The notes below the pieces were generated by a model, which made no database searches, had not been told where the DNA came from, and worked only from the letters and a program-made list of their open reading frames with translations. From contig CAIQJJ010000729.1 in NCBI GenBank assembly GCA_903872065.1, positions 1 to 32,091 on the forward strand: DNA of 32,091 nucleotides, given 5' to 3'. The translations under genes were made by a program, and so were the position numbers. Shown here one piece after another: positions 1-32,091 of the stretch. The first letter of the stretch is position 1. Each line of letters starts with the position of its first letter. This DNA comes from an uncultured Anaerolineales bacterium. Lineage in GTDB: Bacteria > Chloroflexota > Anaerolineae > Anaerolineales > UBA4823.

Positions 1-1680
1 GGCCAGAATACCGGTCGGGGCCATAATTGCAGCCTGGGGGCGCAAGGCAGAGGGCGGCGCAGGCTGAACATCGGCGGAAGGAGATGCGCTCTGGTCGTCA
101 ACAACGGGGACGTCAGCCGGCGCTTCCACGAGCGGCGACGCGGGCTGAGCATCAACGGAAGGAGATGCGCTCTGGTCGTCAACAACGGGGGCGTCAGCCG
201 GCGATTCCACGGGCGGCGGCGCGGGCTGGACATCAGCGGGCTGGCGAATAACCATGAGCATACCCAACGCCGCCACTACGGTCTTGCCTGAGCCAACATC
301 GCCCTGGATCAGCCGATTCATCGGACGACCCGAAGCCAGATCGCTGCGCATATCTTCCAACACACGGCGCTGGGCGCGGGTCAGCGGGAAGGGCAAGCGA
401 GCGATCTGCGCCTCCAACCAGTCATTGGGAACTTCAAAAACACGGGCCGCGCGGGCCTGCCAGAAACGTTTCTGACGCAGCACGCCCAGTTGCAGCAGGA
501 AAATTTCATCGAAGGCCAGGCGGAAGCGAGCAGCCTGAAGCTGCTCTTTGCTATCTGGGAAATGGGCTTGCGCCAGGGCCAGTGATAAATCCATCAAGCC
601 TGCCAGGCGGCGCGTCGTTTCTGGCACATAGTCGCGCACACGCGAGGACCAATAGGAGACTACCTGATGCATCTGTCTGCGTAACCAGTGTTGGGTAATC
701 TTAGAAGTCAACGGATAGACCGGCACAATGCGATTGGTGTTCAGGTTTTCTTGTTCGAGCGGCTCAACTTCCGGGTTCACCATGACCAGGCGGCCCAAAT
801 ATTGATCCACTTTTCCCGAAAGCACTACCTGCATTCCACTGCGCAGGCGTTTGCCAATATAAGGATTCCAAAAAGTCAAGCGCATGGCCCCTGACCCATC
901 ACTGACTACCGCCTCGGTGAACTGCGCCCGCCCGCCGCGCACCGGGCGCATGCTGAGGCTCTGCAGTAAACCAATCACGGTCACTTCTTCACCATATTGC
1001 AAGCGGCTGATAGGTTTAAGTTGGGTGTAATCATCATAGCGCCGCGGGAAATAATAAAGCATATCGCCCAGGGTATGAATGCCCAGGTGGGCAAAAGTAG
1101 CGCCATGCGACTCCCCAATGCCCGAAAGGACCGTCACCGGCGCATCCAGCGCGGCGGGCGGCTCTTCAGGAACAGGCTGCGCCGGGGGCCGCGGAGGCTG
1201 CGAGCGGGCGGCAGGTTGAGGGACGGAAACTGACGGCGGGCTGGCAGCCGGGGGGGTGAGCGCCGGCGCAGGTTCTTCCACCGCTCTGGGCGGCGGGGGC
1301 TCGCCCCGGACTGGCTCTGGTTTCGGCGGGCGCGGTCGCTTGGGAAGCGGCAGGCGCGGCTCAGGCGCGGTCAGATCCAATTTGGGCGGCTCAACAAGCA
1401 CATGAATGGCTAAGGAGGGCAGTTTCTCGCCAGCATTCTGCTGCAGTTGGCGCCAGAGCTGGATCAAAGCCTCGGCGCGCGCCGGCGGCTCTAAACTGCC
1501 ATAGGTGCGAAAACAAGCCACAACACACTGGATGGCCGGCTCCGGCACGCCACCCAGGCGAGCCTCGTTTTCCCAAACGCCCAAGACTTTTTCTAACCCG
1601 CCGATCACGGCGCGGTTGCTGTAGTCGTTTTGGACTTCAAGTTTAAGGAATTTGTAGAGTTTGTTAAGCGAAGGATTCAT
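1..1680 (-). CDS. recG: ATP-dependent DNA helicase RecG, N-terminal part (runs off the left window edge)
   Basis: Minus-strand open frame from ATG at 1680 to the edge (absent from the ORF track because it has no stop in the window). Contains a Pro-rich N-terminal extension, wedge-type 'VTVLSGIGESHGATFAHLGIHTLGDMLYYFPRRYDDYTQLKPI', and helicase motifs 'RLIQGDVGSGKTVVAAL' and 'AAIMAPTGILA'. Confidence 0.93.
   Translation of the reverse strand, partial: MNPSLNKLYKFLKLEVQNDYSNRAVIGGLEKVLGVWENEARLGGVPEPAIQCVVACFRTYGSLEPPARAEALIQLWRQLQQNAGEKLPSLAIHVLVEPPKLDLTAPEPRLPLPKRPRPPKPEPVRGEPPPPRAVEEPAPALTPPAASPPSVSVPQPAARSQPPRPPAQPVPEEPPAALDAPVTVLSGIGESHGATFAHLGIHTLGDMLYYFPRRYDDYTQLKPISRLQYGEEVTVIGLLQSLSMRPVRGGRAQFTEAVVSDGSGAMRLTFWNPYIGKRLRSGMQVVLSGKVDQYLGRLVMVNPEVEPLEQENLNTNRIVPVYPLTSKITQHWLRRQMHQVVSYWSSRVRDYVPETTRRLAGLMDLSLALAQAHFPDSKEQLQAARFRLAFDEIFLLQLGVLRQKRFWQARAARVFEVPNDWLEAQIARLPFPLTRAQRRVLEDMRSDLASGRPMNRLIQGDVGSGKTVVAALGMLMVIRQPADVQPAPPPVESPADAPVVDDQSASPSVDAQPASPLVEAPADVPVVDDQSASPSADVQPAPPSALRPQAAIMAPTGILA
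63..240. repeat. 81-bp (27-codon) tandem repeat inside recG: two full copies (63-143, 144-224) plus a partial third (225-240)
   Basis: 'gctgaacatcggcggaaggagatgcgctctggtcgtcaacaacgggg...' at 63 recurs nearly identically at 144 and begins again at 225; the period of 81 keeps the reading frame. Confidence 0.9.
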
Positions 1681-7163: not shown

Positions 7164-9073
7164 ATGGATACGGAGGATGCTCTGGAAACACAACGAATCA
7201 CCCAAAATTTGGACTATTCCACCAGCAGTCTCGATCAGCAACTTCAACCAGGCGTTACGCTGGTTAACCGTTACCTGATCCAGAATGCGATTGGAATCGG
7301 CGGAATGGGGGCTGTTTATCGCGCCCGCGATTTACATTTCCCCAATGTCATCAAGCGCGTCGCGGTGAAAGAGATGATCAACCAGGCGCGTGACCCTATT
7401 GTACGCGAAACCATCGTGCGCAACTTCGAACGTGAGGCGAACATCCTGGCCACACTGGATCATCCATCCATTCCGCGCATCTATGATTACTTCACCCATA
7501 ATGAACGCTCTTACCTGATCATCGAGTTCATTGATGGTAAGGATTTGGAGGCGCTGCTCAGCGATATGAACGGATTCTTCCCCGAGGCGCAAATTGTCAC
7601 CTGGGCGATTGAATTGTGCGATGTGCTGCGCTACTTGCACAATCACAAGCCTGATCCAATCGTATTTCGGGATATGAAGCCTTCAAATGTGATGATCAAC
7701 CAACACAATCATGTGATGTTGATTGATTTTGGCATCGCCAAACCCTTTGAAACCGGTCAAAAAGGCACCATGATCGGTACGGAAGGGTATTCGCCGCCCG
7801 AACAATACAAAGGAGAAGCGACTCCTCTGGCCGATATTTACGCCATGGTGCAACCCTGCACCACATCCTCACGCGGCGCGATCCCCGCCTCGAGCCGCCT
7901 TTCTCGTTTGGCGAGCGCCCGATCCGGCAGTTCAACCCCAGTGTCTCGCTTGAATTAGAGACGGTCGTCAACACGGCGCTGCAATACAACGCGGAAAGCC
8001 GCTTTCCCAACGCGGATGCAATGAAACAGGCGCTGCTCAGCGTAGCGCAAAAGACGGGTACTCTGCACCCCATGCCCAATAACAACGTCGCCAAAAAAGG
8101 CAGCAGCAGTAGTGAAGGAACACGCTGCTTGTGGAGTTTCGAGTGCGAGGACGAGGTGCGCGGGACGCCCACTTATGCCAACGGCGTTGTTTATGTGGGT
8201 TCCTACGACAATAATCTGTATGCGCTAAAAGCCAGCAATGGGGAGTTTTTGTGGAAATATCCCACCGAAGGGGGGATTGTTAGCAGGCCTGCCTTTGCAG
8301 ATAATAATGTCATTGTTGGCTCTGAAGACAAGTCGCTGCATGTGGTTTCGGCGCGCATGGGCAAAAGTATCTGGACTTACCAAACGGATGGGCCCATTCG
8401 CTCCTCGCCTGCAGTGGCCGAGGGGCATATCTTTGTCGGCTCAGATGACGCCTGCTTGCACGCCATCAATATACTCACGGGGCGGCGCGCCTGGCGCTTC
8501 GACGCCGGCGAGATGGTACGCTCGACGCCGGCGGTGTCCGCTGACCGTATCTACTTTGGCACTGAAAGCGGCGAACTTTTCTGTTTGGATTTTAGTGGGA
8601 CGACCAAGTGGCGTTTCAAGGCAAAGCGAGCATTCACCTCTTCGCCAACCGTGGCGCAAGGCGCGGTCTATATCGGCTCACTGGATGCGATGCTCTACGC
8701 CGTAGATGCGAAATCGGGATTCAATATCTGGCGCTTCCGGCTGGGGAAAGGCTCGATTTCATCCCCCTGCACGAGCGACAAATATGTTTTTACCGGCGCG
8801 ATTGACGGAGTGATCTACTGCCTGGATGCCCGTTCTTCAAAAGAAATCTGGCGCTTTACGGCTGAACAGCAAGTAACCAGTTCTCCCATCCTTTTCCGCG
8901 ATTCAATCTACTGCGGCTCAGTGGATGGCAACCTGTACGCGCTGGAATATCGCACCGGACGATTACGCTGGAAGTATCAAATCGGGAAACCGATCACCGG
9001 TACTGCCGCAGTTGGCGAAGACATTATTTTTGTCGGCGCCACCGATCATCGCGTTTATGCTCTGACGGCTTGA
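7164..9073 (+). CDS. Ser/Thr protein kinase fused to a PQQ-type beta-propeller (about 8 blades), interrupted by an apparent 1-nt frameshift near 7848
   Basis: Kinase ORF 7164-7958 has 'NAIGIGGMGAVYRARD', 'PIVFRDMKPSNVMI', 'LIDFGIAKPF', 'GTEGYSPPEQYKGEATPLADIYAM', then goes out of frame. Adding one G at 7847-7848 gives '...ADIYAMGATLHHILTRRDPRLEPPFSFGERPIRQFNPSVSLELETVVNTALQYNAESRFPNADAMKQALL', joining the 8021-9073 frame of repeated 'SSPAVAEGHIFVGSDDACLHAINILTGRRAWRF'-type blades. Confidence 0.85.
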
Positions 9074-31938: not shown

Positions 31939-32010
<72 letters not shown>

Positions 32011-32091
32011 CAGTAAGTTTTCTTGGGGCTATTCAAGGGTTGTGGATGAGGATCAGGCAATTTGCCATGATGGAAGGATCTATGCCAAGGA

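Follow-up and report, generated by a model that had tools for sequence, protein, structure and literature searches.

The window, which is the whole 32,091-nucleotide contig (C729) analysed here, begins inside a recG gene read on the minus strand, and the contig end cuts this gene at residue 560 of 962 (Table 1). The assembly comprises 927 contigs, and the remainder of recG is found on another of them, C607, whose start, when reversed, reproduces window bases 1-137 in an exact 137-bp overlap. C607 continues recG in the same frame (a 447-aa frame) to a normal RecG C-terminus. Joining the two contigs yields a 962-aa RecG without a stop, in which GDVGSGKT, APTGILA, VIDEQHRFG, TATPIPR and QFRGRVGRG are intact and the C-terminal RecG segment is present. 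A relative's contig (L141; G007:C445 10300-11980) also ends in recG, and exactly at motif Ia, which there reads MAPTSILA.

The joined protein contains the RecG wedge followed by two RecA-like helicase domains. Pfam assigns RecG_wedge (PF17191) at 97.2 bits, with DEAD, Helicase_C and RecG_dom3_C on the C607 part. The NCBIfam model NF008168 scores 316.6 and 585.8 bits for the two recG parts, where the cut-off of 718 applies to the whole protein, and mfd scores far lower. The closest solved structure is that of RecG, 1gm5. By the agreement of NCBIfam, Pfam and 1gm5, the gene is recG, as a sequence-only reading of this DNA had proposed. Because the helicase motifs are intact, this fork-remodelling helicase is probably an otherwise ordinary, working enzyme.

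Table 1. Coordinates of the recG features in the window.
Feature	Window position	Strand	Basis
recG 5' part, residues 1-560 of 962	1..1680	-	Pfam/NCBIfam models, 1gm5; rest on C607
Motif Ia APTGILA, residues 554-560, at contig end	1..21	-	sequence
Exact overlap with C607 start (C607 = rest of recG)	1..137	.	sequence identity
Low-complexity insert, residues 479-549 (71 residues, net +66 vs relatives)	34..246	-	
81-bp repeat copy 2 (sense direction)	53..133	-	
81-bp repeat copy 1 (sense direction), 90% identical to copy 2	134..214	-	
Walker A GDVGSGKT, residues 460-467	280..303	-	sequence
Pro/Ala-rich linker, residues 104-178, N-terminal region to wedge domain	1147..1371	-	relatives with similar linkers

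Elsewhere in the window, the kinase-like sequence of a Ser/Thr kinase frame (7164-7958) breaks off near 7845; its expected continuation, GATLHHILTRRDPRLEPPF..., lies in the adjacent frame and leads into a PQQ-repeat frame ending at 9073. The stretch 7164-9073 is apparently one kinase-propeller gene broken by a frameshift or a sequencing error. A tRNA-Lys (ctt) is located at 31939-32011, near the other contig end.

In the region that links the helix following Walker A to motif Ia, the protein reads GDVGSGKTVVAALGMLMVI, then 71 residues (RQPADV...LRPQ), then AAIMAPTGILA. The insert peptide quoted in the sequence-only reading is the exact translation of window 246-34, and its placement between the two motifs is borne out; the strand needs correction to minus. 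The insert is rich in proline, alanine and acidic residues, as had been described, with 17 P, 13 A, 10 V, 9 D, 9 S and 7 Q and a net charge of -9. Its frame is open throughout and continues in frame into C607, so the frameshift within the repeat that had been named as a refutation is not found.

The tandem 81-bp repeat reported earlier is likewise present, and TRF assigns it a period of 81, 2.3 copies, 88% matches and a score of 311; no other array in the window is nearly as strong. Only two of the 2.3 copies are complete, which qualifies the earlier description. As the units are in frame, a change by whole units would preserve the reading frame, again as had been stated. Since the array coincides with a break in the assembly, the number of units is uncertain. 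Between the full copies there are 7 base differences, which fall in 6 codons and change the residue in every one; the partial third copy shows both synonymous and residue-changing differences. The 6/6 pattern would be expected under weak constraint and is not significant. Positive selection could likewise leave the full copies without synonymous differences, but six codons are too few to tell. DNA and protein searches of the genome for other copies of the insert returned only the insert itself and the overlapping contig end, and no inverted repeats were found in window positions 1-400.

An AlphaFold model of residues 165-560, built with 54 relatives, has a mean pLDDT of 84.7. In it, the helix following Walker A (model residues 302-314, RecG 466-478) is confident and ends where the insert starts. 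Over most of the insert the pLDDT stays below 50; model residues 336-368 are in this range and have no predicted structure. The insert is thus predicted to be disordered. The turn that connects this helix with the following strand lies, in RecA-like domains, at the edge facing away from where ATP and DNA bind.

The comparison with relatives that the sequence-only reading called for was made by counting the residues that separate the close of Walker A (G-x-x-G-S-G-K-T) from the motif Ia PT. This spacing is 87 residues in the window; 152 other RecG loci have 21, and one (G020, L156) has 26. These loci are drawn from genomes of the family, the order and other phyla, all outside the genus, and some perhaps represent the same genome in two collections. 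The window RecG therefore carries a net insertion of 66 residues, and the turn that it replaces is about 5 residues long rather than the approximately 8 given earlier. The five extra residues of G020 occupy the same turn. In a search of 75 genomes from across the class, about 72 RecGs (two of them already counted) matched without interruption, and, contig-edge pieces apart, the match stopped at the insert only in the window's own genome. Of these class RecGs, 30 were read directly and all had 21 residues; the homologous Mfd translocases in the class search were also uninterrupted. Altogether, none of about 220 other RecGs checked has more than 5 extra residues at this site, and a literature search for such an insert in RecG found no report. 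Since the site is invariant in every other sampled RecG but the one with five added residues, it is not freely variable, and the insertion may have carried a cost or a benefit.

Other segments of low complexity occur in the same protein, in its relatives and in its genome. RecA domain 2 of this RecG has a second insert, a 23-residue excess between YPLVEES and AVEEH, a distance of 57 residues here versus 33-36 as a rule. This second insert (L169, contig C607, 690-730) contains short-period repeat-like text, AEHSAERNAERSADR. Long N-terminal linkers are common to the relatives' RecGs, and in several relatives (L025, L126, L156, L038) the loop between motifs Ia and Ib is enlarged by Pro/Ala/acid-rich text. 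Derivation of the insert from the protein's own N-terminal linker was considered and is not claimed, as the best local score, 30, barely exceeds the highest value from 40 codon shuffles (29) and is marginal. In the genome, an in-frame 78-bp repeat of 5.3 copies, with DWFSQMGAASTPAASEPAQEADQGGL units, lies within a 1119-aa frame (L193, contig C106, 13670-14079). TRF rows with a period of at least 12 number 49 in 361 kb of this genome versus 40 in 490 kb of relatives, a rough comparison only because the 361 kb was picked partly from contigs weakly matching the insert. With several in-frame arrays in the genome, the RecG insert reads as one of a number of in-frame repeats in a fairly repeat-rich genome, in an unusual place.

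Taken in sum, the data favour, with a probability of about 0.7, a lineage-specific disordered loop that grew through tandem duplication in a surface turn able to tolerate it and probably has no dedicated function. What is established is that the insertion exists, has a repeat structure, keeps the frame open, is unique and is predicted to be disordered. On this reading, an 81-bp unit would have been duplicated in tandem and in frame at the turn, through slippage or unequal recombination, with subsequent divergence of the copies. The known RecA-like topology would put the loop at an edge of domain 1, remote from the sites for ATP and DNA, and the motor could therefore fold and work around it with activity retained. 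The loop would then persist as a tolerated, near-neutral feature of a lineage whose RecGs have Pro/Ala/acid-rich linkers and loop expansions. The relatives' expanded loops and long linkers, the five residues added in G020 and the other minisatellites all speak for this reading.

If functional, the loop would act as an acidic, Pro-rich tether, recruiting a partner such as a replisome or repair protein or regulating the motor. Its charge, its 17 prolines in 71 residues, its disorder and the presence of other disordered segments in the same protein are consistent with such a role. However, no relative conserves the loop, no defined motif is recognised in it, and SSB, the best studied RecG partner, uses other contacts: in E. 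coli the SSB C-terminal tip binds a pocket in RecG helicase domain 2, and PxxP motifs of the linker played no part in that study (PMC10164576). Mimicry of the SSB linker through PxxP was also considered and set aside, the linker model being contradicted by the same study (PMC10164576). The tether or interaction arm suggested by the sequence-only reading is unsupported, given that the insert is unshared by relatives, has no related sequence in the genome and is predicted to be disordered, and a functional role is judged unlikely. If the loop were functional, it would represent a new way to regulate RecG; nothing here points that way. It is highly improbable that the insert is a selected, lineage-specific acidic arm whose length changes by 27-residue units to give a tunable helicase; if true, an ATPase core would hold a module of variable length at a position that is otherwise fixed across bacteria.

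The repeat itself, and its position at a contig end, bear on three further readings. In a contingency locus, slippage would alter the number of units and tune RecG activity across the population. The units are in frame and near-identical, and the assembly breaks exactly at the array, which is compatible but not specific because other contig ends overlap similarly (141, 141 and 123 bp). Against this, slippage should be slow with only 2.3 copies and 7 mismatches per unit. Loss of one unit from the 6-bp tandem repeat in mutL inactivates that protein (PMC2955026), whereas all RecG relatives do without any unit; such a locus seems extremely improbable here. The contig break was also considered as a copy-number branch, since the copies do not share the same base just ahead of the C607 start, which would fit a variant allele; this was dropped because the 141/141/123-bp overlaps elsewhere show that such breaks are general in this assembly, and 137 is not the usual length. 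An assembly artefact, or a wrong copy number, is suggested by the location of the insert within the first 246 bases of a contig that parts from its neighbour at the array, and identical units could have been collapsed. Nevertheless, the whole insert and both flanks lie inside one contig, C607 carries an identical copy of the last 104 bases of the insert, and the joined frame stays open as far as a normal C-terminus; a chimaera is not expected to keep the frame and both gene halves. An artefact is accordingly very unlikely. Lastly, an in-frame mobile repeat element would account for a foreign-looking, in-frame insert in a core gene, and the RecG of another bacterium (isolate E14_metabat.bin.303) does carry a dispersed palindromic-type repeat, GTCATTCCCGCGGAGGCGGGAATCCAG (PSVIPAEAGIQ), in frame in its Ia-Ib loop (L057, 3484-3560). 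The insert, on the other hand, is single-copy at both DNA and protein level and has no inverted repeats; it shows neither the many copies nor the inverted repeats of a dispersed element, the single copy largely refutes that origin, and only the slightest chance is left to it. An intein requires a splicing domain, for which 71 low-complexity residues leave no room, and is ruled out.

The insert marks a spot of otherwise fixed spacing at which the RecG motor domain has accepted 66 residues. The site provides a natural test of helicase-core tolerance and a possible place for tags, and it illustrates a route by which disordered segments can enter core enzymes of repeat-rich genomes.

Compared with known RecG (TIGR00643; Thermotoga maritima RecG, 1gm5), the protein has the same wedge, both RecA-like domains, the main motifs and the C-terminal segment; it differs in its 66 extra residues, the 23 in RecA domain 2 and a long, Pro-rich N-terminal linker. 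The Ia-Ib expansions of the four relatives resemble the insert in being Pro/Ala/acid-rich and disordered-looking, and they occupy a neighbouring loop of the same domain. The Ia-Ib loop, however, varies in length among RecGs, whereas the insert site otherwise does not. The mutL repeat of Salmonella and E. coli, proposed as a switch for Salmonella, is similarly an in-frame tandem repeat in the gene of a DNA-repair ATPase (PMC2955026). In contrast to that 6-bp repeat, the RecG units are 81 bp long, diverged and present in 2.3 copies, in a dispensable extra loop and not in a conserved fold. Rickettsia palindromic elements also insert in frame in conserved, unrelated genes (PMC10969869); they form dispersed palindromic families, whereas the RecG insert is single-copy and non-palindromic.
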